Made by a program: the position numbers and the translations under genes. A model generated the notes under the pieces. The model was not told the DNA's origin, did not search any database, and saw only the letters and a program-made list of their open reading frames with translations. Positions 4,170-64,000 of a stretch of DNA of 64,000 nucleotides are shown piece by piece. Each line of letters opens with the position of its first letter. Within the stretch, counting starts at the first letter, position 1. Origin of the DNA: Histomonas meleagridis (Eukaryota; Parabasalia; Tritrichomonadida; Dientamoebidae); the NCBI GenBank assembly GCA_020186115.1, contig WSYJ01000135.1:124001-188000 (forward strand). The letters run 5' to 3'.

Positions 4170-4251
4170 AAAGATGAAATTTTATATTTTTCGATATAGA
4201 AATTTATATAAATTTTAGATGAAGTACGAACAGATTCAAACAAAAATTTAA

Positions 4252-4681
4252 TTGGTTTGTTGTTTGTTTATTTGATCATTTACTTTGATGAAATGCTTAT
4301 TCAGAGAAATTATTTTTCGTTATATAAGGAAATTTAATGAATTTGTTGTTTGTTTATTTGATCATTTACTTTGATGAAATGCTTATTTAGAGAAATTATT
4401 TTTCGTTATATAAGGAAATTTAATGAATTTGTTGTTTGTTTATTTGATCATTTACTTTGATGAAATGCTTATTTAGAGAAATTATTTTTCGTTATATAAG
4501 GAAATTTAATGAATTTGTTGTTTGTTTATTTGATCATTTACTTTGATGAAATGCTTATTCAGAGAAATTATTTTTCGTTATATAAGGAAATTTAATGAAT
4601 TTGTTGTTTGTTTATTTGATCATTTACTTTGATGAAATGCTTATTTAGAGAAATTATTTTTCGTTATATAAGGAAATTTAC
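4252..4681. repeat. Five-copy 86-bp tandem repeat
   Basis: The string TTTGTTGTTTGTTTATTTG recurs with starts at 4256, 4342, 4428, 4514 and 4600, an exact 86-bp period. Copies differ by about one base (for example TTATTCAG versus TTATTTAG). It lies between the S9 peptidase stop and the 3' end of the ankyrin locus. It has no long ORF, so it is probably a non-coding minisatellite. Confidence 0.95.
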
Positions 4682-4976: not shown

Positions 4977-7900
4977 TTATTTATATTTTTCTAGTAAATT
5001 TATGATTTCACTATTTCCCTTTTTTAATGCATGTGTAAAAGTTGTTTCATTTAATCATAATAAATTCCAAATTATATTTTATGATTTTAATTATTTAAGA
5101 GCAAATAAAAATGAAATATTTTAATATCACATATATTTATATCAAGATTATCTTTTTTTAATAGTAATTTAATAACTTTTATTCTTTCATTTTCAATGGC
5201 TTTTATAAGTGCTGTTTTAATAAATATAAATAAATTCCAAATATTATATCGAAATCCAAAATAATTTATATAAATATTATTTGAAAAATATATAAATTTT
5301 TAGCATTAATATCAATTCCTTCTTGTTCAAGAAGTAATTTAACTATTTTTGTGTGACCATTTTCAGATGCATTAATAAGTGCTGTATCAAATTCTTTAAA
5401 TAATTTCCAAATATTATTTTGAAATATAAAATTATTAAAATAAATTTTTAAATAAAACAGATAAATATCTTTAGCATTAATATCAATTCCTTCTTGTTCA
5501 AGAAGTAATTTAACTATTTTTGTGTGACCATTTTCAGATGCAAATATAAGTGCTGTTTGAAATAATTTAAATAATTTCCAAATATTATTTTGAAATATAA
5601 AATTATTAAAATAAATTTTTAAATAAAACAGATAAATATCTTTAGCATTAATATCAATTCCTTCTTGTTCAAGAAGTAATTTAACTAGTTTTATATGTCC
5701 ATTTTCAGATGCAAATATAAGTGCTGTTTGAAATAATTTAAATAATTTCCAAATATTATTTTGAAATATAAAATTATTAAAATAAATTTTAAATAAAACA
5801 GATAAATATCTTTAGCATTAATATCAATTCCTTCTTGTTCAAGAAGTAATTTAACTATTTTTGTGTGACCATTTTCAGATGCATTAATAAGTGCTGTATC
5901 AAATTCTTTAAATAATTTCCAAATATTATTTTGAAATATAAAATTATTAAAATAAATTTTAAATAAAACAGATAAATATCTTTAGCATTAATATCAATTC
6001 CTTCTTGTTCAAGAAGTAATTTAACTATTTTTATATGTCCATTTTCAGATGCAAATATAAGTGCTGTTTGAAATAATTTAAATAATTTCCAAATATTATT
6101 TTGAAATATAAAATTATTAAAATAAATTTTAAATAAAACAGATAAATATCTTTAGCATTAATATCAATTCCTTCTTGTTCAAGAAGTAATTTAACTATTT
6201 TTTTGTGACCATTTTCAGATGCAAATATAAGTGCTGTTTGAAATAATTTAAATAATTTCCAAATATTATTTTGAAATATAAAATTATTAAAATAAATTTT
6301 AAATAAAACAGATAAATATCTTTAGCATTAATATCAATTCCTTCTTGTTCAAGAAGTAATTTAACTATTTTTATATGTCCATTTTCAGATGCAAATATAA
6401 GTGCTGTTTGAAATAATTTAAATAATTTCCAAATATTATTTTTGAAATATAAAATTATTAAAATAAATTTTTAAATAAAACAGATAAATATCTTTAGCAT
6501 TAATATCAATTCCTTCTTGTTCAAGAAGTAATTTAACTATTTTTTATATGTCCATTTTCAGATGCAAATATAAGTGCTGTTTGAAATAATTTAAATAATT
6601 TCCAAATATTATTTTGAAATATAAAATTATTAAAATAAATTTTAAATAAAACAGATAAATATCTTTAGCATTAATATCAATTCCTTCTTGTTCAAGAAGT
6701 AATTTAACTATTTTTGTGTGACCATTTTCAGATGCAAATATAAGTGCTGTTTGAAATAATTTAAATAATTTCCAAATATTATTTTTGAAATATAAAATTA
6801 TTAAAATAAATTTTTAAATAAAACAGATAAATATCTTTAGCATTAATATCAATTCCTTCTTGTTCAAGAAGTAATTTAACTAGTTTTTATATGTCCATTT
6901 TCAGATGCAAATATAAGTGCTGTTTGAAATAATTTAAATAATTTCCAAATATTATTTTGAAATATAAAATTATTAAAATAAATTTTAAATAAAACAGATA
7001 AATATCTTTAGCATTAATATCAATTCCTTCTTGTTCAAGAAGTAATTTAACTATTTTTGTGTGACCATTTTCAGATGCATTAATAAGTGCTGTATCAAAT
7101 TCTTTAAATAATTTCCAAATATTATTTTGAAATATAAAATTATTAAAATAAATTTTAAATAAAACAGATAAATATCTTTAGCATTAATATCAATTCCTTC
7201 TTGTTCTAGAAGTAATTTAACTATTTCTGTATAACCTTTTGAAGATGCAAATATAAGTGCTGTTTGAAATAATTTAAATAATTTCCAAATATTATTTTTG
7301 AAATATAAAATTATTAAAATAAATTTTAAATAAAACAGATAAATATCTTTAGCATTAATATCAATTCCTTCTTGTTCAAGAAGTAATTTAACTATTTTTA
7401 TATGTCCATTTTCAGATGCAAATATAAGTGCTGTTTGAAATAATTTAAATAATTTCCAAATATTATTTTGAAATATAAAATTATTAAAATAAATTTTAAA
7501 TAAAACAGATAAATATCTTTAGCATTAATATCAATTCCTTCTTGTTCAAGAAGTAATTTAACTAGTTTTATATGTCCATTTTCAGATGCAAATATAAGTG
7601 CTGTTTGAAATAATTTAAATAATTTCCAAATATTATTTTGAAATATAAAATTATTAAAATAAATTTTAAATAAAACAGATAAATATCTTTAGCATTAATA
7701 TCTAAAATTATTAAAATAAATTTTAAATAAAACAGATAAATATCTTTAGCATTAATATCAATTCCTTCTTGTTCTAGAAGTAATTTAACTATTTCTGTAT
7801 AACCTTTTGAAGATGCAAATATAAGTGCTGTTTGAAATAATTTAAATAATTTCCAAATATTATTTTGAAATATAAAATTATTAAAATAAATTTTAAATAA

Positions 7901-10900
7901 AACAGATAAATATCTTTAGCATTAATATCAATTCCTTCTTGTTCAAGAAGTAATTTAACTATTTTTTATATGTCCATTTTCAGATGCAAATATAAGTGCT
8001 GTTTGAAATAATTTAAATAATTTCCAAATATTATTTTGAAATATAAAATTATTAAAATAAATTTTAAATAAAACAGATAAATATCTTTAGCATTAATATC
8101 AATTCCTTCTTGTTCAAGAAGTAATTTAACTATTTTTGTGTGACCATTTTCAGATGCAAATATAAGTGCTGTTTGAAATAATTTAAATAATTTCCAAATA
8201 TTATTTTGAAATATAAAATTATTAAAATAAATTTTAAATAAAACAGATAAATATCTTTAGCATTAATATCAATTCCTTCTTGTTCAAGAAGTAATTTAAC
8301 TAGTTTTTATATGTCCATTTTCAGATGCAAATATAAGTGCTGTTTGAAATAATTTAAATAATTTCCAAATATTATTTTGAAATATAAAATTATTAAAATA
8401 AATTTTAAATAAAACAGATAAATATCTTTAGCATTAATATCAATTCCTTCTTGTTCAAGAAGTAATTTAACTATTTTTTGTGTGACCATTTTCAGATGCA
8501 TTAATAAGTGCTGTATCAAATTCTTTAAATAATTTCCAAATATTATTTTTGAAATATAAAATTATTAAAATAAATTTTAAATAAAACAGATAAATATCTT
8601 TAGCATTAATATCAATTCCTTCTTGTTCAAGAAGTAATTTAACTATTTTTATATGTCCATTTTCAGATGCAAATATAAGTGCTGTTTGAAATAATTTAAA
8701 TAATTTCCAAATATTATTTTGAAATATAAAATTATTAAAATAAATTTTAAATAAAACAGATAAATATCTTTAGCATTAATATCAATTCCTTCTTGTTCAA
8801 GAAGTAATTTAACGATTTCTGTACGACCATTTTCAGATGCATTAATAAGTGCTGTTTGAAATAATTTAAATAATTTCCAAATATTATTTTGAAATATAAA
8901 ATTATTAAAATAAATTTTAAATAAAACAGATAAATATCTTTAGCATTAATATCAATTCCTTCTTGTTCAAGAAGTAATTTAACTATTTTTATATGTCCAT
9001 TTTCAGATGCAAATATAAGTGCTGTTTGAAATAATTTAAATAATTTCCAAATATTATTTTTGAAATATAAAATTATTAAAATAAATTTTAAATAAAACAG
9101 ATAAATATCTTTAGCATTAATATCAATTCCTTCTTGTTCAAGAAGTAATTTAACTATTTTTATATGTCCATTTTCAGATGCAAATATAAGTGCTGTTTGA
9201 AATAATTTAAATAATTTCCAAATATTATTTTTGAAATATAAAATTATTAAAATAAATTTTAAATAAAACAGATAAATATCTTTAGCATTAATATCAATTC
9301 CTTCTTGTTCAAGAAGTAATTTAACTATTTTTGTGTGACCATTTTCAGATGCAAATATAAGTGCTGTTTGAAATAATTTAAATAATTTCCAAATATTATT
9401 TTGAAATATAAAATTATTAAAATAAATTTTAAATAAAACAGATAAATATCTTTAGCATTAATATCAATTCCTTCTTGTTCAAGAAGTAATTTAACGATTT
9501 CTGTACGACCATTTTCAGATGCATTAATAAGTGCTGTATCAAATTCTTTAAATAATTTCCAAATATTATTTTGAAATATAAAATTATTAAAATAAATTTT
9601 AAATAAAACAGATAAATATCTTTAGCATTAATATCAATTCCTTCTTGTTCAAGAAGTAATTTAACTATTTTTATATGTCCATTTTCAGATGCAAATATAA
9701 GTGCTGTTTGAAATAATTTAAATAATTTCCAAATATTATTTTGAAATATAAAATTATTAAAATAAATTTTAAATAAAACAGATAAATATCTTTAGCATTA
9801 ATATCAATTCCTTCTTGTTCAAGAAGTAATTTAACTATTTTTTTTTGACCATTTTCAGATGCATTAATAAGTGCTGTATCAAATTCTTTAAATAATTTCC
9901 AAATATTATTTTGAAATATAAAATTATTAAAATAAATTTTAAATAAAACAGATAAATATCTTTAGCATTAATATCAATTCCTTCTTGTTCAAGAAGTAAT
10001 TTAACTATTTTTGTGTGACCATTTTCAGATGCATTTCGAAGGGCTGTATCAAATTATTTAAATAATTTCCAAATATTATTTTTGAAATATAAAATTATTA
10101 AAATAAATTTTAAATAAAACAGATAAATATCTTTAGTATTAATATCAATTCCTTCTTGTTCAAGAAGTAATTTAACTATTTTTATATGTCCATTTTCAGA
10201 TGCAAATATAAGTGCTGTTTGAAATAATTTAAATAATTTCCAAATATTATTTTGAAATATAAAATTATTAAAATAAATTTTAAATAAAACAGATAAATAT
10301 CTTTAGCATTAATATCAATTCTTCTTGTTCAAGAAGTAATTTAACTATTTTTGTGTGACCATTTTCAGATGCAAATATAAGTGCTGTTTGAAATAATTTA
10401 AATAATTTCCAAATATTATTTTTGAAATATAAAAATTATTAAAATAAATTTTTAAATAAAACAGATAAATATCTTTAGCATTAATATCAATTCCTTCTTG
10501 TTCAAGAAGTAATTTAACTAGTTTTATATGTCCATTTTCAGATGCAAATATAAGTGCTGTTTGAAATAATTTAAATAATTTCCAAATATTATTTTGAAAT
10601 ATAAAATTATTAAAATAAATTTTAAATAAAACAGATAAATATCTTTAGCATTAATATCAATTCCTTCTTGTTCAAGAAGTAATTTAACTATTTTTGTGTG
10701 ACCATTTTCAGATGCATTAATAAGTGCTGTTCTAAATAATTTAAATAATTTCCAAATATTATTTTGAAATATAAAATTATTATAATAAATTCTAAATAAA
10801 ACAGATAAATATCTTTAGCATTAATATCAATTCCTTCTTGTTCAAGAAGTAATTTAACTATTTTTGTGTGACCATTTTCAGATGCATTAATAAGTGCTGT

Positions 10901-13311
10901 ATCAAATTCTTTAAATAATTTCCAAATATTATTTTGAAATATAAAATTATTAAAATAAATTTTAAATAAAACAGATAAATATCTTTAGCATTAATATCAA
11001 TTCCTTCTTGTTCAAGAAGTAATTTAACTATTTTTATATGTCCATTTTCAGATGCAAATATAAGTGCTGTTTGAAATAATTTAAATAATTTCCAAATATT
11101 ATTTTTGAAATATAAAAATTATTAAAATAAATTTTAAATAAAACAGATAAATATCTTTAGTATTAATATCAATTCCTTCTTGTTCAAGAAGTAATTTAAC
11201 TATTTTTGTGTGACCATTTTCAGATGCAAATATAAGTGCTGTATGAAATACTTTAAATAATTTCCAAATATTATTTTTGAAATATAAAATTATTAAAATA
11301 AATTTTAAATAAAACAGATAAATATCTTTAGTATTAATATCAATTCCTTCTTGTTCAAGAAGTAATTTAACTATTTTTGTGTGACCATTTTCAGATGCAT
11401 TAATAAGTGCTGTATCAAATTCTTTAAATAATTTCCAAATATTATTTTGAAATATAAAATTATTAAAATAAATTTTAAATAAAACAGATAAATATCTTTA
11501 GCATTAATATCAATTCCTTCTTGTTCAAGAAGTAATTTAACTATTTTTATATGTCCATTTTCAGATGCAAATATAAGTGCTGTTTGAAATAATTTAAATA
11601 ATTTCCAAATATTATTTTGAAATATAAAATTATTAAAATAAATTTTAAATAAAACAGATAAATATCTTTAGTATTAATATCAATTCCTTCTTGTTCAAGA
11701 AGTAATTTAACTATTTTTTGTGTGACCATTTTCAGATGCATTAATAAGTGCTGTTCTAAATAATTTAAATAATTTCCAAATATTATTTTGAAATATAAAA
11801 TTATTATAATAAATTCTAAATAAAACAAATAAATATCTTTAGCATTAATATCAATTCCTTCTTGTTCTAGAAGTAATTTAACTATTTCTGTATAACCTTT
11901 TGAAGATGCTACCATAAGTGCTGTGTAAGCATTAATTTTGATTTTATTTTGCTTGAATAAGAACTTATACATTTCTGTAGAACTAAAATTAAAATTATTT
12001 ATAATTTGTAAATAAAATAATTAAATAAAACGTTAATTAAATTTTTGATACATTAAATTTTTGATATAAAACTATAAATAAATTAATTAAATATCATCAT
12101 TACTTTTAATCAATATAAATTTATTTTTAAGAATATCTTTAAAAAGTTCTTTATTTCTTGCAATTAAAATTAAACTTAAAACATTTTTAGGGATTTTATC
12201 TATATTATTATTTACAAAATATTTAAATAAAAATATATTTCCAGTTTTAATCGAAGTTTTGATAAGTTCCTCAAAATTTTTATTTTCTTTATCAATTAGA
12301 AATGAAAGTATTTCAAAATTATAATAAAAAACACATTCAATTAATAAATCAGTATGCATAATATTTTCTGATTTATTTTCATAGATGTATTTAAAAAATA
12401 TCATTTCGATGAAATATAATTGCTGCTTCATATGCGCCTTCAAATGTTGAATGATTTTGTTCACATAAATGAACGATTTCTTCATTCCCACTTGCACCTG
12501 CATATTTACCTGTATTTTCTACATTAGCACCATTCATAAGTAAATATTTAAAACATTGAACTGAAGAAAAAAATGCTGCATAATCAATTAATGTAACATT
12601 TTCTTCATTTATAAATGAACAACTTTCATAAAGTGATGGTTCAATTTTTTGATTAAAATCAAAAATTTATTTGTGATGATATTTCTTGAAGTTTTTCTAC
12701 TTCATCATTTCGAATTGTTTTTGCTATTTCTTTTGGATTATGTACTTCTTTAATTAATTTCTTATGAAGTTCAAAATCATTCTTTGAAAGCTCTTTGTAA
12801 TTATCTAAAATTGATTGTAGAAAATTAGATTTTATATTTTTAATTTCGCTTTTTCTTTTATAGTGAATAAATAACAACGAGTTTATATATCTAATCTTAT
12901 TTTCTTCAATTATTTTATTTTCAATTAATCTTTCGAGAATATAATTCGATTCTTGTGTTTTAAAAAAAAAAAAAAAAATCTGTAAAAATATTAATGATAT
13001 TATCTTCTTTCGTTTCATTATTTGTATCTTTTTTTTTTTTTTTATAATTCTTCTTCTTTCATTTTAAATAATTTTATATATTCAAAAATTAATTGAATAT
13101 TTTCATTTCCCATTAAAAAATACGAATAAAGTAATTGACAAATTATAAGCTTAAATGAATATGGATATTGATGGATTTTAATAAATAATGTTGATTCAAC
13201 TGTTTCTGGAATATTATTTTCGTTCATTTTAAAGATATAATTTTCTATTTGTTGTAACATTCCTATTGAATCTATATTTTCTTCTTTGATTTGCGTTTGA
13301 CTATTTCCCAT
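4977..13311 (-). pseudogene. Giant ankyrin-repeat locus, DUF3447-type N-terminus, about 40 homogenised units; frameshifted
   Basis: The locus reads right to left. It begins MGNSQTQIKEENIDS at 13311 with a helical region typical of trichomonad DUF3447/ankyrin proteins (blocks ELSKNDFELH, NPKEIAKTIRNDEVEKLQEI, ENVTLIDYAAFF, YAVASGNEEIIHLCEQ). About 40 ankyrin modules of the pattern TALIFASENGHIEIVKLLL...GIDINAKD follow, every ~170 bp. It ends with a diverged module and an in-frame TAA at 4977-4979. The N-terminal part is broken by long A/T runs near 12961-12978 and 13030-13047 and by single-base additions near 12665 and 12390, compared with the second copy at 24-26 kb. At least seven modules carry 1-bp homopolymer changes. 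Spacers between modules contain stops or shift the frame (see findings). The breaks could be true decay or sequencing error in homopolymers. Ankyrin proteins usually mediate protein-protein binding; the role here is unknown. Confidence 0.75.
5300..11950 (-). repeat. Homogenised tandem array of ~170-bp ankyrin units (~39 copies)
   Basis: Each unit is a 90-nt ankyrin module plus a spacer of about 80 nt. The anchor TTTAGCATTAATATCAATTC recurs every 170-173 bp, for example at 5470, 5641 and 5811. Neighbouring units are almost identical. Differences cluster in a few positions (GTGTGACC versus ATATGTCC; GCAAATATAAG versus GCATTAATAAG) that reappear in shuffled order, as expected from unequal exchange or gene conversion. 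One short partial unit sits at about 7681-7740. Assembly copy number is uncertain in such an array. Confidence 0.9.
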
Positions 13312-23979: not shown

Positions 23980-26190
23980 TCAGTTGTATTGATATCCTTG
24001 AACATCAATTCCTTTTTGTTCAAGAAGTAATTTAACTATTTCTGTATGACCATAATAAGATGCATACATAAGTGCTGTTATAAATAATTTAAATAATTTC
24101 CAAATATTATTTTGAAATATAAAATTATTCAAATAAATTTTAAATAAAACAATTAAATATCTTTATCATTAATATAAATTCTTTCTTGTTCAAGAAGTAA
24201 TTTAACTATTTCTGTATGACCATATAAAGATGCTAAAATAAGTGCTGTTTCAAATAATATAAATAATTTCCATATATTATTTTGAAATATCAAATTATTA
24301 AAATAAATTTTAAATAAAACGAATGAATAGATGTAAAATTAATATCAATTCCTTCTTGTTCAAGAAGTAATTTAACTATTTCTATGTAACCACATCTAGA
24401 TGCTACCATAAGTGCTGTATCAAATTCTTTAAATAATTTCCAAATATTATTTTGAAATCCAGAATTATTAAAATAAATTTTATATAAAACAAATAAATAT
24501 TTTTAGCATTAATATCAATTCCTTCTTGTTCAAGAAGTAATTTAACTATTTTTATATGTCCATTTTCAGATGCAAATATAAGTGCTGTTCTAAATAATTT
24601 CCAAATATTATTTTGAAATATAAAATTATTAAAATAAATTTTAAATAAAACAGATAAATATCTTTAGCATTAATATCAATTCCTTCTTGTTCAAGAAGTA
24701 ATTTAACTATTTTTATATGTCCATTTTCAGATGCATTAATAAGTGCTGTTCTAAATAATTTAAATAATTTCCAAATATTATTTTGAAATATAAAATTATT
24801 AAAATAAATTTTAAATAAAACAAATAAATATCTTTAGCATTAATATCAATTCCTTCTTGTTCAAGAAGTAATTTAACTATTTCTATATAACCTTTTGAAG
24901 ATGCTACCATAAGTGCTGTGTTAGCATTAATTCCTATTGCTTTTTGCTTGAATAAGAACTTATACATTTCTGTAGAACTAAAATTAAAATTATTTATAAT
25001 TTGTAAATAAAATAATTAAATAAAACGTTAATTAAATTTTTGATACATTAAATTTTTGATATAAAACTATAAATAAATTAATTAAATATCATCATTACTT
25101 TTAATCAATATAAATTTATTTTTAAGAATATCTTTAAAAAGTTCTTTATTTCTTGCAATTAAAATTAAACTTAAAACATTTTTAGGGATTTTATCTATAT
25201 TATTATTTACAAAATATTTAAATAAAAATATATTTCCAGTTTTAATCGAAGTTTTGATAAGTTCCTCAAAATTTTTATTTTCTTTATCAATTAGAAATGA
25301 AAGTATTTCAAAATTATAATAAAAAACACATTCAATTAATAAATCAGTATGCATAATATTTTCTGATTTATTTTCATAGATGTATTTAAAAATATCATTT
25401 CGATGAAATATAATTGCTGCTTCATATGCACCTTCAAATGTTGAATGATTTTGTTCACATAAATGAATGATTTCTTCATTCCCACTTGCAACTGCATATT
25501 TACCTGTATTTTCTACATTAGCACCATTCATAAGTAAATATTTAAAACATTGAACTGAAGAAAAAAATGCTGCATAATCAATTAATGTAACATTTTCTTC
25601 ATTTATAAATGAACAACTTTCATAAAGTGATGGTTCAATTTTTTGATTAAAATCAAAATTTATTTGTGATGATATTTCTTGAAGTTTTTCTACTTCATCA
25701 TTTCGAATTGTTTTTGCTATTTCTTTTGGATTATGTACTTCTTTAATTAATTTCTTATGAAGTTCAAAATCATTCTTTGAAAGCTCTTTGTAATTATCTA
25801 AAATTGATTGTAGAAAATTAGATTTTATATTCTTTAATTTCGCTTTTTCTTTTATAGTGAATAAATAACAACGAGTTTATATATCTAATCTTATTTTCTT
25901 CAATTATTTTATTTTCAATTAATCTTTCGAGAATATAATTCGATTCTTGTGTTTTAAAATTAAAAAGAAAATCTGTAAAAATATTAATGATATTATCTTC
26001 TTTCGTTTCATTATTTGTATCTTTTTTTTGATTATATAATTCTTCTTCTTTCATTTTAAATAATTTTATATATTCAAAAATTAATTGAATATTTTCATTT
26101 CCCATTAAAAAATACGAATAAAGTAATTGACAAATTATAAGCTTAAATGAATATGGATATTGATGGGTTTTAATAAATAATGTTGATTCT
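23980..26190 (-). pseudogene. 5'-truncated duplicate of the first ankyrin/DUF3447 locus
   Basis: Minus-strand sequence nearly identical to 12.0-13.2 kb over about 1.2 kb (blocks NYKELSKNDFEL, VHNPKEIAKTIRND, LCEQNHSTFEGAYE, IPKNVLSLILIARN), then six ankyrin modules and a TGA at 23980-23982 after GIDVQGYQYN. Identity with the first locus stops abruptly at about 26190 in GTTGATTC, so the first ~40 codons and the promoter are missing. A 1-bp insertion near 25833 (TATTCTTTAA versus TATTTTTAA) shifts the frame between KSEIKEYKI and the rest. Downstream the frame is open from there through the DUF3447 region to 25082. Later modules are more diverged than those of the big array and separated by the same kind of spacer. 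Probably a non-functional partial duplication. Confidence 0.8.
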
Positions 26191-26548: not shown

Positions 26549-29300
26549 ATGCAAAAACGCGAAACAAATTCAAGTAAAAAAGAAAAAATATTTCCCCAAA
26601 ACAAAGGACTAGAATTGTTCTCTGAGCTTGAACAAATCATAATGAATCTAACAGAAGAAAATATAAATTTTTCAGCTATCCATACAACAAAATTATTTGA
26701 TTTTTCTTTACCATATTCATTTAATCTTGTTATAAGTCAATTAATTTATTATGCATTTTTATCACAAAGAAATAAGTGTACTACGTATTTTAAATTTTTT
26801 GAAATTATTCAAAAGAAAGAAGAGGAAAAAATTGGTTCTAAATACAATATTATTGAAATATTTCTGAATTATATCATAAAAAATAATTCTCAAGAAGCTC
26901 TATATCTAATTGAGCAAATGATTAGACAAAATTTAATTGATGCAAATATTACAAAGATAATTCCTTCAAAATATTTTGCTCATTACAAAACTACAACTGA
27001 AAACAAAGAATGGATTAATGATCGATTTTTTTCTACTTTTATAAAAAATTTTGAAGAATTATCAAAGAATGATTGGGAGCTTCATCAGCAATATGTTAAA
27101 GAAGGACATAATCCAAATGAAATTGCAAAAATAATTCGAAATGATGAAATAGAAAAACTTCAAGAAATATCATCACAAATAAATTTTGATTTTAATCAAA
27201 AAATTGAACCATCACTTTATGAAAGTTGTTCATTTATAAATGAAGAAAATGTTACATTAATTGATTATGCAGCATTTTTTTCTTCAGTTCAATGTTTTAA
27301 ATATTTACTTATGAATGGTGCTAATGTAGAAAACACAGGTAAATATGCAGTTGCAGGTGGAAATGAAGAAATTATTCATTTATGTGAACAATGTTGTTCA
27401 TCATTTAAAGGGTCTTATGAAATTGCGATTGAATTTCATCGAAATGATATTTTTCGTTATCTTTATGAAAATAAAATGGATAATTTGTATGAGGTACATG
27501 ATACAGAACCTCATAGAGATTTTCTGAAATATGAAGATTTAATAAAATTTTGTGTTATAAGTGGAAATTATGAAATCCTATCATTTTTAGAAGGAGAAGG
27601 AACAAAAATCAATGAATCTATTATCAATGAATCAGCAAAAATTGGTAATGTATATCTACTCATTCATTTTCTTCATAATAATAAGAAAATACCAAAAAAT
27701 ATTTTAAGTTATACTATTGAATCAGAGAATGTTGAAGTTGTGGAATATATCATTCTTAAACATAGAAAAGAAATCAATTTTAATTCTGTAAATATTTTTT
27801 GTAAAATTTCAATGTTTTCATATCATATTTAATAATGAATTATTAAGTTATTTAAAACACCTTTGTTATATGTTGCTGAAAAAGGTTACACTGAAATAGT
27901 TAAATTACTTCTTGAACAAGAAGGGATCGATATTAATGCTAAAGACATTTATTGGTTTTATTTAGAATTTATTTTAATAATTTTGGGATATTTCAAAATA
28001 ATATTTGGAAATTATTTAAATTATTTAGAACAGCACTTATATTAGCATCTGAAAAAGGTCATACAGAAATAGTTAAATTACTTCTTGAACAAGAAGGAAT
28101 TGATATTAATGCTAAAGGTATTTATTTGTTTTATTTAATATTTATTTTAATAATTTTCTATTTCAAAATAATATTTGGAAATTATTTATATTATTTGAAA
28201 CAGCACTTATAAATGCATCTAGATATGGTTACATAGAAATAGTTAAATTACTTCTTGAACAAGAAGGGATCGATATTAATGCTAAAGATATTTATTTGTT
28301 TTATTTGAAATTTATTTTAATAATTTTGGTATGTTTCAAAATAATATTTGGAAATTACAAAAAATATTTAAAACAGCACTTATTTTAACATCTAGAGATG
28401 GTAATTTAAAAGTAGTTAAATTACTTTTGGAACATAAAATAATTGATTTAAATGTTAAAGATGATATTTATTTACTATAATCGATATTATATAATGTAAC
28501 TTTGGTTTTTAAGCCAAAATTTGAAATTTTACTGTATAATTTGAAACACCATTAATTTGGGCCTCAAAATATGGACATAAAGAAATAGTTAAAATACTTC
28601 TCGAAAAAGAAGGAACTAATATTAATGCCAAAAATTTTTATGTATTTTATTTAAGGTTTAAACTAATTAAAATGGATTTCTTAATGATGTTTGGAAAATA
28701 TTCATATTGTTTCAAACAGCACTTATAAAGGCATCTTCAAGTGGATACACTGAAATAGCCAAATTACTTTTAGGAAAAAAAGGAATTGATGTTAATGTTC
28801 AAGACATTGTTTTTATGTTTTGTTTAGAATTTATTTATACAATTTGATATTTTAAGTGTGTATTTGGGTTTTATTTAAAATACTTGAAACACCAATTGTG
28901 TTTGCAGCTAAAAATGGTCACACAGAAATAGTTAAATTACTTCTTGAACAAGAAGGAATTGATATTAATGCTAAAGATAAATTTTTGTTAATTTATTTGA
29001 TAATTATTTTAACGATTTGATATTTTAAAATAATATTTGGAATTTACTTAAAATATTTTGTACAGCACTCATGAAAGCATCGAGAAATGGTTATGCTGAA
29101 ATAGTTAAATTACTTCTTGAACAAAAAGGTATTAATATTAAAGCTAAAACTATTCACTAAATTTATTTAAAATTCAATTAAATGATATAATATTTCAAAA
29201 CAATATTTGGAAATTATTGAAATTATTTGAAACAGCACTTGATTTAGCATCTTCAAAAGGTAATCAAAAAATTGTTGCGTTATTTCATGAATTTTTTTAA
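26549..29300 (+). CDS. DUF3447/ankyrin protein with spacer-interrupted modules
   Basis: The first 427 codons (26549-27832) are an uninterrupted N-terminal domain. It starts MQKRETNSSKK and has a DUF3447-type helical region (FEELSKNDWELHQQYV, NPNEIAKIIRNDEIEKLQEI, LIDYAAFFSSVQCFKYLL, YAVAGGNEEIIHLCEQ). Then come nine ankyrin modules of ~30 codons. I read each of them and found no internal stop or frameshift; the last closes with HEFF and TAA at 29298-29300. Between modules lie spacers of 63, 83, 80, 83, 83, 80, 83, 83 and 80 nt, several with stops in every usable frame. Intact modules plus a proper start and stop argue that the gene works and that the spacers are removed or bypassed. Without that, translation ends at 27832. 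Molecular partner unknown. Confidence 0.7.
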
Positions 29301-34789: not shown

Positions 34790-36352
34790 TCACTTAAAAT
34801 TTAAACCAAAGGGACTCGGGAAACGCATCTGATTAAATCCATTGTTGTTTGGTCCTTTTTCATTAAGTAATTGTTTTATTTCTCTGAGACCTAACTGTTG
34901 AGCAATTTCAATATGAAGTGCTGTTTCAAGTGATTAAAACATATTCTAAATTATTAAAACATATTATAAATTATTCAAATGAATATCTTTTGCATTCACA
35001 TCAATTCCTTCTTTATCTAAAAGTAATTTTACTATTTCTATATTATTATTTCTAACTGCTATATGAAGTGCTGTTTCAAATTATTAAAACATATTCCAAA
35101 TTATTAAAACATATATCAAATTATTCAAATGAATATTTTTTGCATTAACATCAATTCCTTCATTATCTAAAAGTAATTTTACTATTTCTATATTTCTTGA
35201 TTTAACTGAATATGGTAAAATTGTATTTGGAATTTGTTGACTTTGTATATCACTTTCTATTATGAATGTATTTCCTTTTGATGCTATTTCTTCAATAATT
35301 TCATTATTCATTTTCATTCCTTCTTTTACTAAAAACATTAAGATTTCATAATTATTAAATTCCATACATTTTTTTCCAAGATATATTAAATTTTCTTCAC
35401 TTAAATTACAATTATCTTGACTTTCGATATTGGAATTCGATTTTTTAAAAGAAAATGATGAAGATGACTTTTGTTTATCATTGGAAATTTTTCCAATTTT
35501 ATTTTCATAAAGATACGAAAAATTTCATTTTGATGAAATTCTATCGCTGTTTCATATGCGTTTTCAAATGATGAATTGTTTTGTTCGCATAAATGAATAA
35601 TTTCTAAGTTTCCACCTGCAATTGCATATTTAGGTGTATTTTTGATATTCGAATTATTTAACAACAAATATTTAAAACATTTAATCGAACCAAAAAATGC
35701 GCAATAATCAATTAATGAAACATTTTCAGTATTAACAAATGAGCATCTTTCATAAAGTGATGGTTCAATTCTTTGATTAAAATTAAAACCATTTTGTGAT
35801 GATATTTCTTGAAGTTTTTCTAAATCATCATTTCGAAGCACTTTCGCAATTTCTGATGGATTAACTCCTTCTTTTACATATTGAATATGAAGCTTCAAAG
35901 CATCTTTTGATAATTTATGAGGTTCTGCCCATTTGTTCATTAATTCATTCATTTTTTCTTTTGTTTTAAATTGAGAAAAATATAATTTGCTCATGCTGTT
36001 TACGGTAGATGGTTCAGGTATTTCTTCTTCGATCATCTTTTCAAGAAGGAAATATGATTCTTGATTTTCTATTCCAAGCAAATATTCACAAAATATTTGC
36101 ACAAGATTAGCTTCAGTTAAACTTTTGTTTTTTGCTTTTTCTTCTTCTTTTGCTTTTAATGTAAATAAATATTTAACATATATATTTTCATTATTATGTT
36201 GAGAAACAAAAGCTGAGTATATAAATCTGGAAATAAGATAGTTAAATGTATAAGGTAGATTATCAACAAATAAATTAATTGTTGCTTGAACAGATGTTTC
36301 AAAATTTTTTTCGTTGAGATTGAAGACAATGGATTCTAATGATTTCGATCAT
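34790..36352 (-). pseudogene. Decayed DUF3447/ankyrin gene (no start codon, one frameshift)
   Basis: Open from about 36352 without an in-frame ATG at its beginning, reading SLESIVFNLNEKNFETSV. The conserved DUF3447 blocks follow: LSKDALKLHIQYVKEGVNPS, IAKVLRNDDLEKLQEISSQ, LIDYCAFFGSIKCFKYLLL, YAIAGGNLEIIHLCEQ. Near 35517 one T is missing in TTTCGTATCTTTATG compared with paralogues (TTTCGTTATCTTTATG), shifting the frame. The rest is open in the next frame (KKCMEFNNYEILMFLVKEG). Ankyrin modules with 60-nt spacers follow, then a tail ending NQMRFPSPFGLNFK and TGA at 34790-34792. A single sequencing error plus a missed start is the alternative to real decay. Confidence 0.7.
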
Positions 36353-42310: not shown

Positions 42311-45300
42311 TTAATAACAAATACATTTCGCAGGAGATTTCTTACTAATTAAATCCGCGATGTTGGTATATGAATTTTTTATTGCAAGGGAAAGAGCTGT
42401 GTCAAACTATTAAAATGAATTCCAAATATCATTTTAAATCATCACGTTACTAAAATTAACATTATCTACAACATTAATATCAATATTTTCTTCATCAAGA
42501 AGAATTTCTACGATTTGGAAAAATCCATTTTCAGATGCCTTCATAAGTGCTGTTTGAAATATTTTAAGTCAATTCCAAATAAAATTTTGATATCCGAAAT
42601 AAATAAAAAAAATATCAAAACAAGTAAACAAATATCTTGAGCATTAATATCAATTCCTATTTGATACAGAAGTATTTTAACAACGCCTTTGTTTCCTTTT
42701 TCAGATGCTTTTATAAGTGCTGTTTGAAATATTTTACGTCAATTCCAAATAATATTTTGATATCCAAAATAATTAAAAAGAATATCAAAACAAGTAAACA
42801 AATATCTTTAGCATTAATATCAATTCCTTTTTCAAGAAGTAACCGAACAACGCCCATATTTCCTTTACTAGATGCACAAATTAGTGCTGTTTTATAAATT
42901 TTTATCAAATTCCAAATAATATATTCGAATATAAAATATTTCAAGTTTACAATAATTAAGACAAATTGATATCCCTTACATTTATATCAATATTTTTGTG
43001 TTTAAGAAGGAAACCAACAATTTCATATTGGCATGCTTCAGCTGCAAATATAATTGCAGTTTCATATCATTTTAATATATTCCATGCAATAATAAGTAAT
43101 TCCAAATAATTTATATACACTAAAAATAAGCAAATAATACACTTTTCGCATTTATATCAATACTTTCTTGTGCAAGTAGTAATTTAACTACATCAATATT
43201 ACCCATTAAAGATGCTTTCATTAATGATGTATAAAATATTTCAAATAAATACAAAATTTAATGACAAAATCAGAAATTATTTAAATAAACATTATAATCA
43301 GTAAAGCAAAAATCTTTAGCATTAATATCAATTCCTTCTTGTTCAAGAAGTAATTTAACTATTTCTATATGACCATTTTTAGATGCTATGATAAGTGCCG
43401 AATCAAATAATTGAAACAATTACCAAATATTATATAAAAATACCAAATTATTTAAGCAAAAACCAAATAAACTAATTAAATATTTTTAGCATTAATATCA
43501 ATTCCCTCTTGTTCAAGAAGGAATTTAACTGTTTCTGTTTTGCCATTTTGCGATGCAATAATAAGTGCAGAGTCAAATAATTAAAACAATTACCAAATAT
43601 TATATCAAAATACCAAATTATTAAAATAAATATTAAATAAACAAATCAAATATTTTTAGCATTGATATCAATTCCTTCTTGTTCAAGAAGTAATTTAACT
43701 ATTTCTATATAACCATTTTTAGATGCTAAAATAAGTGCTGAATCAAATAATGTAATTAATTACCAAATATTAGTTTAAAGCAGAAAATTATTTAAACAAA
43801 AATCAAATAAACAAATCAAATATTTTTAGAACTAATATCAATTCCCTCTTGTTCAAGAAGAAACTTAACTGTTTCTAATTTACCATTTTTAGATGCGGAA
43901 ATAAGTGCTGAATCAAATAAAATAAACAATTGCCAAATATAATTTTGAAACAGAAAATTATTTGAATAAATTTTATTTTTATCATTAATATCAATTCCTT
44001 CTTGTTCAAGAAGTAATTTAACTATTTCTATATGACCATTTTTAGATGCCACAATAAGTGCTGAATCAAATAATATAAATAATTACCAAATATTATATAA
44101 AAATACCAAATTATTTAAACAGAAATCAAATCAAACAAACAAATACCTTTAGCATTGATATCAATTCCTTCTTGTCCAAGAAGAAACTTAACTGTTTCTG
44201 TTTTACCATTTTTAGATGCGGAAATAAGTGCTGAATCAAATAATTTAAACAATTACCAAATATAATTTTGAAACAGAAAATTATTTGAATAAATTTTATT
44301 TTTATCATTAATATCAATTCCTTCTTGTTCAATAAGAAACTTAACTGTTTCTGTTTTACCATTTTTAGATGCTACAATAAGTGCTGAATCAAATAATATA
44401 AATTATTACCAAATATTATATAAAAATATCAAATTATTTAAACAGAAATTAAATAAACAAATTAAATATTTTTAGCGTTAATATCAATTCCTTTACTAAG
44501 AAGAAATTTAAACATTTCAATATGGTCATATTTTGACGCCAAAATAAGAACTGTATTAAATAACTTCAATAATTTCCATATGAAATATTGAATTATCAAT
44601 ATATTAGAAGAAAAATCAAATAGTATATATAAATATCTTTGGTATTAATATTAATCAATCCTTGAGTTAAAAGATTTTGAATTGTTTTAACATTTCCCTT
44701 TTCTAATGCTTTATTAACTTTCTTGAGAAATATTTTGATGAGATTTTATATTTTATTATTAAACCCAAAATTAACAAAATAAATATTTTTCATACTATTT
44801 ACGTCAATTCCATTTTGTTCAAGAAATAGTTGAAATATTTCTCTTCGATTTTTTTTTGCTGCCCAAATAAGTGCTGTTCTAAATATTTAAAACAATTTTC
44901 ATATGTTATTTTGAGACTTTAATTTGTTAAAATAAAATTTAAATAGAGCAAATAAATATCTTTAGCATTAATATCAATTCCTTCTTGTTCAAGAAGTAAT
45001 TTAACTATTTCTATATGACCATTTTCAGATGCTAATATAAGTGCTGTATCAAATAATTTAAATAATTTCCAAATCTTATTTTGAAATATAAAACCATTAA
45101 AATAAATTTTAAATAAAACAGATAAATATCTTTAGCATTAATATCAATTCCTTCTTGTTCAAGAAGTAGTTTAACTATTTCTATTTGACCATTTTCAGAT
45201 GCTAATATAAATGCTGTTTTAAATAATATAAATAATTTTCAAATATTATTTTGAAACCCAAAATTATTAAAATAAATTCTAAATAAAACAAATAAATATC

Positions 45301-47878
45301 TTTAGCATTAATATCAATTCCTTCTTGTTTAAGAAGTAATTCAACAATTTCTGTGTGACCATTTTCAGATGCCAAAATAAGTGCTGTATCAAATAATTTA
45401 AATAATTTCCAAATATTATTTTGAAATATAAAATTATTAAAATAAATTTCAAATAAAACAAACAAATACTTTTAACATTAATATCAATTCCTTTCTGTTC
45501 AAGCAATACTTTCGTTATTCCTATTATACCTTCAGAACAAGAAACCATAAGTGGATTTTGTAATATTAAGAATAATTTTTAAATATTATTTAGAAATACT
45601 TAATAATGCTTAAAATACATAGGAAATAAATCAAATAAATATTTTTGATATCAATATCAACGTTTTTGTACTTAATGAGTAATTTTAATAGTTCTGACTG
45701 ATCATTCCACGTTGCCCACCAAAGTAACTTTTCAAATTTTATAAATAAATTCCAAAAATCAACAAAAAATCTTATATTAAACAAATTAACACTTTTAGAA
45801 TCAATATCAAAATTTTTATGTTTAAGAAGTAATTTAACTATTTTCATGTTACCTTTTTGAGATGCAATCATAATTGCTGTAAGAAATATTTCAAATAGTT
45901 TTTAAATAACTTAATAAAATTTTGAATATCAATAACAAATTGCAAATAAAATAATTTGATATTTTGTGCCATTATATCAAGTTCATCTTTTTTAACAAGC
46001 AATTTTATAATATCAACATGTTGATTTTCGGCTGCCCATATAAGTACTTTCTCAAATATTTTAAATAATTACCAAATATTTCTTTAAAGCATTAAATCAT
46101 TATGATAAATTTTATATAAAATAATTATAATATTTCAACATTAGCATCACAATTTTTATGTTCAAGAAGTAATTTAAATATATCAAAATAATTATTTGAA
46201 AATGCCTTCATAACTGCTGTTTCATATATTTTGAATAATTATTAAATATTATATTAAAATATATAATCAATAAGATAAACATAAATTTTAAAATGTAAAT
46301 ATCTTTGGAATTTATGTCAATATCTTCAAATTCAAGAAGTAATTTAACTATATCAATATGGCCTTTTTCAGATGCATACATAAGTGCTGTTCTAAATAAT
46401 TTAAATAAATACTAAATATTATTTTGATATCAAAAATCATTAAAACAAACAAAAAAAATAAACAATAAAACACCATTAGCATAATTAATATTAATATCTT
46501 TATGTTTAAGAAGTAATTTAACTACTTCTGTATGACCTTTAATAGATGCAATTATTAATGCTGGATAAAATATTTTAAATAATTTTTATAAAATATGTTT
46601 AAATATGATGAGAACATTAAAATAAATATTAAGTAAAACAAATAAATATCAATTGCATTAATATCAATTCCTTCTTGTTCAAGAAGTAATTTAACCATTT
46701 CGATATCACCTTTTTCAGATGCTTCCATAAGAAATGTATAAAATAATTTAAATAATTTCCAAATATTATTTTGAATCACGGGTTTATGATATTTTGAAAT
46801 ATCAAGACAAATAAATAAATAATTCTGCAATTTATATCAATTCCTTTTTGTTTAAGAAGTATTTTGAACATTTCTACTTTACCATTTTTGAATGATTCAA
46901 TAAGTGCTGTTTGAATTATTTTGAATAATTTCCAAATATTATTATGAAATATAAAATTATCAGAAGAAATTTTAAATAAAACAAATAAATACTAAAAGCA
47001 TCAATATCAATTCCTTCTCGTTCAAGAAGTAATTTAACAATTTCTGCATAACCTTTTCCAGCAGCAATAATAAGTGCTGTTTCAAATAATTTAAGTAATT
47101 TCCAAATATTATTTTTAAGTATCAAAATATTGTCATAAATTTTAAATAAAACAAATAAATATCTTTAGCATTAACATCAATTCCTTCTTGTTCAAGTAGT
47201 AATTTAACCATTTCTACATTACCTTTTTTAGATGCCATAATTAATGCTGATTGAAATAATTCGAATAATTTCCAAATATTATTTTGAAATAAAATATTAA
47301 TCAAATAAAACTGAATTAAAACAAATAAATATCTTTAGTATTAACATCAACTCCTTCTTTATTAAGTAATAATTTCATTATTTGTGTGTGGCCATTTTGA
47401 TATGCTTTCATAAATGCTGTTTCAAATGTTATGAATAAATTCCAAAAATTATTTTAATACATGCAATCATAAGAACAAATACTAAATCAATTAAATAAAT
47501 ATCTTTAGAATTAACATCAATTCCTTCATGTTCAAGTAATAATTCAACTTTTTCTGTATAGCCTTTTATGCATGCCCATATTAGTGCTGTAAAAAATTAT
47601 TTTAACAATATCCAAATTTTATTTGAAAATATAAAATTATTAAATTAATCTGAAAATGAAATTTTGAGATATCTTTAGCATTTACATCAATTCTTTTTTG
47701 ATCTAGAAATAATTTAAAGTTTTCTGGAGTCAATCGATTAACAGCCTTTATAATTTTTGGAAAAAATAAATCAAATAATCTCCTAATATGATTTTGAAAT
47801 ATCATCCCCTTTAGACTCGTTTAGGAACTTCATATAAGAAATTTGATCTTTAAATGGAAATATGTTTTCTTTTTTCAT
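42311..47878 (-). CDS. Long diverged ankyrin-repeat gene, ~33 modules each separated by a spacer
   Basis: Reading right to left, a short opening ORF MKKENIFPFKDQISYMKFLN starts at 47878. About 33 ankyrin modules follow (examples TALIWACIKGYTEKVELLL, TALIIAAGKGYAEIVKLLL, NPLMVSCSEGIIGITKVLL), and the last reads TALSLAIKNSYTNIADLIS and ends KCICY with TAA at 42311-42313. Modules differ strongly from each other, yet the many I translated keep a clean 29-31 codon frame and the ankyrin core residues. Spacers counted by hand are 80 nt (13 cases), 83 (3), 63 (2), 60 (1) and 84 (1). Most contain stops or break frame. No DUF3447 N-terminus was found. Intact modules imply selection on a spliced or otherwise joined product of ~1000 residues or more. 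Exact exon edges cannot be set. Confidence 0.65.
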
Positions 47879-62282: not shown

Positions 62283-64000
62283 ATGTTTTTGGTGAATCAT
62301 TTTGTTGCCATCGTTTCTTTTATATATTTCATACATGAATTTAGAGCTTCACATACTAATGTCAGTTCAAACATCAATAAAATCTTATATCTACACACCA
62401 TTAAAAAAGATTATAATAAAATTGGAAAAGAATCACATATTTCAAGATTTCCAACATATGTTGGATGTAGTTCTTATTGTGATTTTTCATTTTGGAAAAT
62501 GCATTTTTATGATAAATCTTATAATGATTATACTTACTTATGTTTTCATACCAATGACATTAATAAATTCAAGAAGAATATAGCAGCAAATAATTATTCT
62601 TCCATTATAACATTCATAATCTTAGCATTAGCTTCAGCAGAAATTTTGTTCGAATCAAAGGAGAAAAAACTCAAAAACTTATTGAATGATTTGAAAATGC
62701 CAAATTTATTATTTCACATATTTTTCATAAATTCATTTCAAAGTTTTGAATCAGGCACACTCACAATTAATTCTGATGATGATTTCCTCGAAGATTATAG
62801 CCAATTTATGTATTCAACATATCATGTTGTTATCGGAAATGGAGTAACACAAATTCCAGATGCAGAATTCGCAAATTGGAATATAAACACAGCTTATATT
62901 GGTGATTCAGTTACGAGAATTGGTGTTATTGCTTTTCAATCATGCAGTTATCTGCATTCAATATACATCGGGAAGAGTGTTACAAAAATTTATGCAGCAT
63001 CCTTTTCGGGTGTTTCAAATCTAAAATGCATATTTTTTAGTGGTGTGAAAGAGCCAACAATATCGCAATATCGGTGGTTCACAACTGCTTTTGATGATTA
63101 TTTAGAAATGATAGTAATGGTTCCTTCAAATTATGAAGGAAATAGTTTTGATATTTTTGATGTTACCAAAGGAATAATTCTTGATGAGTGTCGCGATTTG
63201 GGATGGGAAATTCCAACTGTTACTCCAACAAATACGTTTACCAAATCAAATGCATTTACCAAGTCAAATACTTTCACTAAATCAAATTCATTTAGTATAT
63301 CAAATACATTCACTAAATCAAATTCATTTACTAAGTCAAATACATTCACTAAATCAAATTCATTTACCAAGTCAAATACATTCACTAAATCAAGTGCATT
63401 TACCAAATCAAATACATTCACTAAATCAAATGCATTTACTAAATCAAATACATTCACTAAATCAAATGCATTTACTAAATCAAATGCATTTACTAAATCA
63501 AATACTTTTACCAAGTCAAATACATTCACTAAATCAAGTTCATTCACTAAATCAAGTTCATTCACTAAGTCAAATGCATTCACTAAGTCGAATACTTTTT
63601 TTCAGTCAAATGCAATTTCAGATTTCACTTTCACATTTTCATATATTTTAACTCATTCACTACGAATTACAGAAACATTTTCATTCACATTAATCATTTC
63701 GAATTCATTTGTAGTTACGATGTACAATTCGAGTTATTTCTATACATTAACCAAATTTTTAAATTACAATTATACAATAATTAAATATTCTCAATACTTA
63801 ACTATTATTTCCAATTACTTTACTATTTATCAACAAAATTACAAAACAAATAATCAGAAAAATGACACAATAATCATTGTAATTGTTGTAATAATAATTG
63901 TTGTAATTATTTTGGTTATAATTTCAATTTTCTTGATAAGGAGAATAAAAATCACAAAACAAATAACATCAGAAGTTATTACCGAAGAAGAAAATAATTC
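62283..64000 (+). CDS. BspA-like (TpLRR) surface membrane protein with FTKSN stalk (3' end outside window)
   Basis: Open from the ATG at 62283 to the window end (572 codons). The N-terminus (MFLVNHFVAIVSFIYFI) may be a signal peptide. Residues ~175-260 hold BspA-type leucine-rich repeats: AEFANWNINTAYIGDSVTRI, GVIAFQSCSYLHSIYIGKS and AASFSGVSNLKCIFFSG. A stalk of hexapeptides (FTKSNA, FTKSNT, FTKSSS; ~21 units at about 63236-63610) follows. Then a Ser/Thr/Tyr-rich part and one transmembrane helix (IIIVIVVIIIVVIILVIISI, about 540-559) with a basic, then acidic cytoplasmic tail. BspA-like proteins are a very large family in trichomonads and thought to act at the cell surface in host or microbe contact. 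The short LRR part relative to the stalk is notable. Confidence 0.85.
   Translation, partial: MFLVNHFVAIVSFIYFIHEFRASHTNVSSNINKILYLHTIKKDYNKIGKESHISRFPTYVGCSSYCDFSFWKMHFYDKSYNDYTYLCFHTNDINKFKKNIAANNYSSIITFIILALASAEILFESKEKKLKNLLNDLKMPNLLFHIFFINSFQSFESGTLTINSDDDFLEDYSQFMYSTYHVVIGNGVTQIPDAEFANWNINTAYIGDSVTRIGVIAFQSCSYLHSIYIGKSVTKIYAASFSGVSNLKCIFFSGVKEPTISQYRWFTTAFDDYLEMIVMVPSNYEGNSFDIFDVTKGIILDECRDLGWEIPTVTPTNTFTKSNAFTKSNTFTKSNSFSISNTFTKSNSFTKSNTFTKSNSFTKSNTFTKSSAFTKSNTFTKSNAFTKSNTFTKSNAFTKSNAFTKSNTFTKSNTFTKSSSFTKSSSFTKSNAFTKSNTFFQSNAISDFTFTFSYILTHSLRITETFSFTLIISNSFVVTMYNSSYFYTLTKFLNYNYTIIKYSQYLTIISNYFTIYQQNYKTNNQKNDTIIIVIVVIIIVVIILVIISIFLIRRIKITKQITSEVITEEENN
63236..63610 (+). repeat. 18-bp tandem repeat encoding the FTKSN stalk
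   Basis: The unit is about 18 bp: CATTCACTAAATCAAATG with T/C and A/G changes, about 21 copies. It encodes six residues, so length changes keep the frame. The unit-to-unit pattern (A, T, S alternating in the last residue) hints at a 36-bp higher-order unit. Confidence 0.85.

Follow-up and report, generated by a model that had tools for sequence, protein, structure and literature searches.

Parabasalids count as intron-poor eukaryotes. In other lineages, the non-conventional nuclear introns of euglenids lack GT..AG and have their ends joined by pairing; translational bypass elements are known from T4 gene 60 and, as byps, from yeast mitochondria; and tandemly duplicated exon-intron units, with conventional introns, have spread by unequal exchange in repeat-protein genes of other eukaryotes. 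For the parabasalids themselves, PMC12316389 describes short spliceosomal introns of Type A and Type B in T. stableri and Trichomonas vaginalis, including a few that interrupt ankyrin genes, and gives T. vaginalis 63 active introns with GT/AG and extended 5' and 3' motifs. PMC8529796 reports 573 introns in a virulent strain of Histomonas, and the word ankyrin is absent from its main text. Here we analyze a window of 64,000 nucleotides (nt) from the poultry parasite Histomonas meleagridis, the host of a very large spacer-bearing ankyrin family, and in particular a gene at positions 42311..47878 in which short AT-rich spacers separate the ankyrin modules. Judging from sequence, we propose with a probability of about one half that these spacers are repeat-associated non-canonical introns that would be taken out of the RNA.

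Histomonas resembles T. vaginalis and T. stableri in having short introns, a canonical one at Histomonas locus L032 measuring 71 nt by hand count, but compared with the Type A and B introns the ankyrin spacers number thousands, stand at almost every repeat and carry neither motif. Like the euglenid introns they have no GT..AG and no invariant end dinucleotide, whereas they show neither covariation nor a fold, belong to one repeat family, occupy a fixed position and vary in length by steps of 20 nt. They share with bypass elements the property of being non-coding gaps of tens of nt within otherwise open genes, but no hairpin accompanies them and no matching of take-off and landing codons beyond chance. 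If they are introns, there is one exon per repeat and an identical intron position, as in the tandem exon-intron units, but the spacers are non-conventional. Among the titles and abstract beginnings listed in literature searches, no treatment of these spacers was found.

Architecture of the interrupted gene

The gene lies on the minus strand, as do all the segments listed in this paragraph, and runs from an ATG at 47878 to an in-frame stop ending at 42311, which are exactly the bounds of the original prediction, made from the letters of the window. The first coding segment, MKKENIFPFKDQISYMKFLNESKGDD (47801..47878), supplies a short N-terminus of 26 residues in place of a DUF3447 domain. It is followed by the shortest spacer of the gene (47764..47800), which at 37 nt (17 + 20) is like the 3' part of longer spacers. 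The region 42464..47763 contains 31 modules of 30-31 codons each that were detected with a hidden Markov model (HMM), with spacers between them and a single gap of 230 nt (45561..45790), which is composed of a 57-nt spacer, one strongly diverged module (93 nt) and an 80-nt spacer. A 60-nt spacer (42404..42463) precedes the terminal module (42311..42403), which reads DTALSLAIKNSYTNIADLISKKSPAKCICY and then the in-frame stop. The 31 HMM modules, the weak one within the gap and the terminal one make 33, where about 33 had been claimed. Some HMM scores are weak, the lowest being 2.7; when four single modules were submitted separately, 4/4 matched Ankyrin repeat PF00023 at 27.0-37.9 bits (cut-off 21.1).

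Each spacer was taken to lie between codon D, the last of one module, and codon E, with which the following module begins. By this measure the 29 that the HMM resolves comprise 22 of 77 nt, three of 60, two of 80, one of 78 and one of 81; the further spacers are those of 57, 80, 60 and 37 nt described above. The lengths of 60, 63, 80, 83 and 84 nt given in the original prediction are these values plus the 3 nt of the D codon. Both of its statements about reading frames hold: the spacers contain stops and frame shifts, and no stop is present in any of the 32 internal modules (the 31 HMM modules and the weak one). The modules are indeed strongly diverged, with a mean pairwise nucleotide divergence of 30% among 28 modules of this array (those of 93 nt with a score of at least 5). 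When neutral drift of these 28 was simulated, starting from the array consensus and giving every module the divergence observed for it (mean 20%), a stop was gained by an average of 17.4 modules and by a minimum of 9 in 2000 runs.

Coding edges and the length of the intervening part

These features were placed in a wider context by searching 43.28 Mb of the genome in 121 contigs. The resulting sample consists of the window and 52 loci and contains 538 modules, of which 498 lie outside an array at 5-12 kb of the window. This array was excluded from the main counts, namely junction lengths, edge profiles, cut scans, length classes and substitution rates, and also from the pN/pS ratios (nonsynonymous to synonymous differences per site), the splice-pair scan, the pair tables, the periodicity, the counts of stops in modules and in 60-nt spacers, and the Ile29 and bypass analyses. 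Low-scoring modules, junctions beside stop-bearing modules and near-identical copies were dropped as each analysis required; 81 representatives of 342 junctions were used for the edge stop profile, 62 representatives for the splice-pair scan and 362 junctions for the cut scan. The 439 junctions measured 77 nt in 269 cases, 60 in 67, 80 in 28, 9 in 17 (these are unspaced), 63 in 11, 57 in six, 97 in five and 78 in five, the remainder being scattered.

Inspection of stops codon by codon locates the edges. In the frame of the preceding module, the first spacer codon (mostly ATT) is a stop in 0/81 representative junctions and the second in 7/81; in the frame of the next module, the last spacer codon (mostly TTT) is a stop in 0/81 and the one preceding it in 8/81. 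The chance rate is about 9.7%. In a scan of cut pairs, stops were present in 0/362 junctions when 6 nt were retained (3+3 or 4+2), and at least 10 stops among the 362 when 9 nt were retained. With 6 nt kept of 77, so that 71 nt are taken out, the 33-residue period of ankyrin repeats is restored, which agrees with the length of about 71-74 nt that had been predicted on this ground. Where the family has no spacer, 9 nt usually stand at the junction and the period is 34 residues, and most 60-nt spacers carry an extra codon at the 5' edge. Because of the stop profiles, the stop-free retention of 6 nt and the 33-residue period, we put the boundaries of coding after ATT and before TTT, a codon in from either end of the spacer, the exact nucleotide being undecided.

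Coding therefore stops and resumes at a constant place and in a constant frame at the spacer edges, when junctions beside stop-bearing modules are set aside. At the level of reading frames the modules remain open behind stop-containing spacers, which interrupt nearly all repeats at one fixed position, and the idea of one intervening sequence per repeat is supported. In the sample outside the 5-12 kb array, 28/498 modules have a stop. In 23 of the 28 the module is the last of its array as far as the loci extend, and in 20/23 of these the stop falls at residue 20 or later, which is compatible with a real C-terminus, or with a truncated module that runs into random DNA. Non-terminal modules with a stop number 5/439.

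Two other candidate explanations of the junctions were rejected. The 60-nt spacers are in frame and might have been translated linkers, but they are not simply translated, since 22/51 unique ones have an in-frame stop. A signal within the exon, close to the junction, was ruled out because the bias toward ATT at Ile29 is equally strong in unspaced genes.

Selection on the modules

The original prediction had held that a ratio of nonsynonymous to synonymous rates near one would mark a pseudogene array. Using 407 unique intact modules genome-wide and up to 800 pairs per divergence class, we found that pN/pS over the whole module is indeed near one, ranging with divergence from 0.75 to 1.34, and that it is 0.94 in the 42311..47878 array. 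This value arises because the hypervariable surface positions 5, 10 and 13 are averaged with the framework. Framework codons of the genome sample have a pN/pS of 0.57-0.67, the surface codons 5, 10 and 13 of 1.28-1.39 and the remaining codons of 0.84-1.50; the corresponding values in the 42311..47878 array are 0.81 for the framework and 1.20 for the hypervariable codons. The case for coding is therefore made from the lack of stops, a stronger sign than pN/pS, which is itself weak by the usual measure. Positions 5, 10 and 13, at 3.4 bits each, are hypervariable on a conserved framework, a pattern like that of binding-protein repertoires.

It might be supposed that the arrays are pseudogenes and that their modules look intact just through youth. 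A whole-module ratio near one would be expected from this, the framework value of 0.81 leans the same way, and some arrays do have internal stops or frameshifts. Against it stand the absence of stops from 32 internal modules when drift would have affected 17.4 of 28, the framework ratios of the genome sample, and the same spacers in what appears to be a second species (see below). We regard this explanation as improbable.

Conventional splice signals

Histomonas seems to possess the means for conventional splicing. An open frame of 2333 residues encodes a PROCN domain, which we take to be that of Prp8, and a U6-like RNA scores 43.7 bits, just below the 44-bit cut-off. The L032 intron mentioned above (C91:123554) is of the canonical form GTATGT..ACTAACACACAG and interrupts a gene with a DHHC-like motif; a second place, C92:731632, matches the complete pattern, in which 20-50 nt separate the motifs, and both have GTATGT..CTAACACACAG. 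The 12-nt 3' motif ACTAACACACAG occurs three times in 43 Mb and its control twice, in comparison with 4,395 occurrences of the spacer core described below, and the looser YTAACACAYAG occurs 119 times versus 100 for the control. Canonical trichomonad introns are thus present in this genome, though seemingly rare.

Given this machinery, the ankyrin spacers might be ordinary spliceosomal introns with degenerate or displaced splice sites. An in-frame, stop-free combination of GT in the first 30 nt and AG in the last 20 nt is available, however, in just 4/62 spacer representatives, as would be expected from the earlier claim that conventional trichomonad signals are lacking. The same 62 were scanned for GT-AG, GC-AG, AT-AC, GT-AC and AT-AG over frame-consistent offsets. 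As a fixed cut pair GT-AG can be rejected, since the best pair fits 40% of the spacers. AT-AG and AT-AC cuts fit 69-73%, but they do so by way of conserved letters of module codons, and the repeat would drop well below 31 residues. Because GT..AG fits so few spacers and the 3' motif is near its control count, conventional recognition does not account for the ankyrin spacers, and ordinary introns are an unlikely explanation.

Genome-wide extent, the DUF3447 genes and a relative

A 24-nt spacer core has 2187 + 2208 = 4,395 matches genome-wide with at most 2 mismatches, and 0 + 0 matches to the reversed pattern. The true number of spacers is above this count, by inference about 6,000, since just 159/217 spacers that were picked independently of the core match it. 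In 20 loci chosen by the core, 12 core matches (at most 4 mismatches) lie outside gaps between modules; six of these, with 0-1 mismatch, adjoin a module and six (one with 2 and five with 4 mismatches) adjoin none.

Spacers also occur behind most of the N-terminal open reading frames (ORFs) with a DUF3447 domain that were examined. Two related proteins used as queries, P0003 and P0009, gave 117 and 118 scored genome matches, some of which are two pieces of one gene, and by our own count the DUF3447 family of Histomonas has about 100 members. Of 43 distinct N-terminal ORF ends, 38 run directly into spacer-like sequence as judged by eye. The ends are not uniform: in L005, L020 and L023 the N-terminal ORF continues straight into ankyrin repeats without a spacer, the copy near 25 kb of the window has a longer AT-rich stretch, and in L044 one such end has no module behind it. 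Unspaced (9-nt loop) and spaced junctions occur within one gene in L004 and L006.

P0003 and P0009 belong to a group of proteins from ENA contigs that match the Histomonas N-terminal ORF. Over their full length they are at most 60% and 66% identical to Histomonas, respectively, and up to 71% over part, and since these are the best full-length identities the ENA-contig proteins probably come from one or several other species. No relatives were seen in one viral-contig scan. Seven of the 14 N-terminal ORFs of the relative that reach the first spacer end right after its first codon. Its short ORFs read INAKD-IYLLYLMFISIF and NDIWKLLKLF-ETAL, sequences that come from opposite ends of one and the same spacer. 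Nine complete in-frame read-throughs of a spacer, a set biased toward in-frame and stop-free cases, include seven of exactly 20 codons, or 60 nt (P0035, P0038, P0049, P0121, P0132, P0145 and P0151); the other two are P0163 (17 codons) and P0087 (26 codons). If the relative is a separate species, the spacer would predate the split.

These data bear on the strongest rival to removal from RNA, a silent archive, in which just the DUF3447 N-terminal ORF would be translated and the modules downstream would be untranslated, recombining cassettes, kept intact by exchange with one another and occasionally with expressed copies rather than by translation in place. The hypervariability of surface positions 5, 10 and 13 with their elevated pN/pS, the strong homogenization of the 5-12 kb array and the termination, just inside the first spacer, of half the relative's N-terminal ORFs that reach it speak for this rival. 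In Histomonas, however, the first spacer shows no enrichment for stops, codon 2 being a stop behind 3/43 DUF3447 ORFs; termination immediately after the N-terminal ORF, frequent in the relative, was accordingly rejected as a general feature here. Moreover, the modules of contiguous genes (L001/L005, L020 and L023) look divergent from spaced ones, by reading rather than systematic measurement, and the modules of the 42311..47878 gene have no stops in spite of differing by 30% on average. On balance we think an archive somewhat unlikely. If the arrays were untranslated, they would amount to an extensive store of binding modules that recombine.

Spacer sequence and proposed removal from RNA

T makes up 53% of the spacers and A 36%. 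The 77-nt spacers, studied in 53 representatives, repeat themselves every 20 nt (identity 0.52 at lag 20, z = 11.0, and 0.53 at lag 40, z = 10.5), and overt 20-nt repeats are found near 34911-35194. The spacers are, to judge from this periodicity, degenerate 20-nt tandem repeats, and the length classes 57, 77 and 97 and the single 37 would arise when such a unit is added or lost. A rule that spacer length preserves frame (3n) seemed real initially, but classes other than that of 80 nt are steps of 20 or 14 nt, neither a multiple of 3. The fixed spacer length that had been claimed has a partly mutational cause, through the 20-nt units. In 27 unique 80-nt spacers the extra 3 nt lie at the 5' edge as an extra codon in 12, at positions 34-48 in 12 and elsewhere in 3. 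Information content along the spacer is highest at G58 (84%), G59 (78%) and C45 (65%).

On the reading that we prefer, removal from RNA, short AT-rich non-canonical introns and the ankyrin modules beside them would have multiplied jointly, each exon+intron pair as a single unit. Retention of 3+3 nt would mean the removal of 71 nt of 77, 54 of 60, 74 of 80 and 91 of 97, and the protein would be an unbroken solenoid whose repeats are 33 residues long. The spacer itself holds candidate signals, 5' AUU/UAUUU and 3' UUA/UUU (edges at the slash) rather than GU..AG, with a candidate internal signal, AUUUC..AUUUGGAA, about 20 nt ahead of the 3' end; removal might be effected by the spliceosome or by another activity. 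A more specific proposal, which we advance tentatively and with considerable doubt, is that a spliceosome-independent or radically altered removal serves one repeat-protein superfamily in Histomonas and a close relative; several thousand spacers quantized by 20 nt, up to tens per transcript, would then be handled in genomes that otherwise seem to have few conventional introns, to the benefit of an extensive set of ankyrin proteins whose binding surfaces are hypervariable. Thousands of intervening sequences without known splice signals would, if real, alter the gene counts and gene models of Histomonas and expose a route of RNA processing of which we found no description for parabasalids.

Several observations weigh against removal from RNA. 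A typed consensus of joined modules, compared with 5.8 billion proteins, gave 1498 matches, and in the 12 examined the joined product was found in none, the relative's proteins among them still carrying the spacer. In the cut-pair scan, retention of 3 or 0 nt was as free of stops as retention of 6, and the exact cut is thus not fixed. The spacers have no invariant splice dinucleotides, and the whole-module pN/pS near one belongs here as well. The published annotation (PMC8529796) reports at most one intron per gene, a count tempered by its origin in a trained predictor.

Evidence of constraint on the spacer is likewise ambiguous. In three divergence classes, the rates of change are 0.073, 0.140 and 0.184 for spacer positions 41-77, 0.157, 0.222 and 0.284 for positions 11-40, and 0.105, 0.207 and 0.331 for synonymous sites of whole modules, so that the 3' half evolves at roughly one-half to two-thirds the rate of the middle and more slowly than the whole-module synonymous sites. 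Synonymous sites of framework codons, however, change at 0.049-0.229 in similar classes. Because they are about as slow, and the 3' half not clearly slower, constraint is suggested, and weakly.

No structure was detected either. In a test for pairing that would bring the spacer ends together, the best helix score is 0.268, below the 95% permutation level of 0.305; folding z-scores are 0.53, -0.08 and 0.12; and neither the permutation test nor direct pair tables gave any covariation. A conserved RNA hairpin was ruled out by these three approaches. The absence of a hairpin also speaks against translational bypass or programmed frameshifting, in which ribosomes would hop each spacer and which the original prediction had offered beside removal. 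A stop directly after the take-off codon is known from translational bypass, and stops immediately behind the first codon of the spacer are frequent in the relative. Matched take-off and landing triplets are present, however, in 14/81 junctions, class by class near or below random pairing, and 32 or more successive hops would be needed per protein; bypass is disfavored and very improbable. Finally, the short T/A-rich direct repeats at both spacer ends might suggest that spacers are excised from the DNA in some life stage. The assembly holds the spaced form, and we know of no programmed DNA elimination in parabasalids, which counts against an explanation that we find scarcely credible.

Other arrays and features in the window

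Besides the 42311..47878 gene, the window contains four further spaced ankyrin arrays. The second array (5126..11927, minus strand), the 5-12 kb array excluded above, consists of nearly identical units with gaps of 77 (20), 78 (12), 79 (4) and 76, 80 and 134 nt (1 each). Several of its modules are frameshifted, possibly by assembly errors. Compared with the copy near 25082-25800, its N-terminal ORF (region 5126-13018) is split where T runs differ, and this split and the 1-nt differences among gaps (77, 78, 79) are possibly residual assembly errors. The third array (23989..24922, minus strand) has 6 modules with spacers of 77 (4) and 68 nt (1). On the plus strand, an N-terminal DUF3447/ankyrin ORF of 427 residues (26549..27832), whose product P0001 matches DUF3447 (PF11929) at 34.1 bits (cut-off 26.9), runs into a spacer and is followed by the fourth array (27854..29300), with 9 modules, the last shortened by a stop, and spacers of 77 (3) and 80 nt (5). 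The fifth array (34790..35227, minus strand; edges and second spacer from a hand count) comprises two modules and, at its end, a segment that contains a stop, separated by 57-nt spacers of overt 20-nt repeats, and a 233-residue ORF lies upstream of it at 35401-36102.

Three other repeats were noted, the first of them elsewhere in the genome. CTAACACATAG recurs at a spacing of about 825 nt in contigs C9, C53, C55 and C84, near the contig end in C84 and C55, and is perhaps a subtelomeric long-period tandem repeat. Just past the end of the 5126..11927 array, 4244-4680 holds 5.1 copies of an 86-nt tandem unit that are 98% identical. An 18/36-nt tandem repeat of 10-20 copies at 63229-63599 overlaps the open frame 62283-63998.

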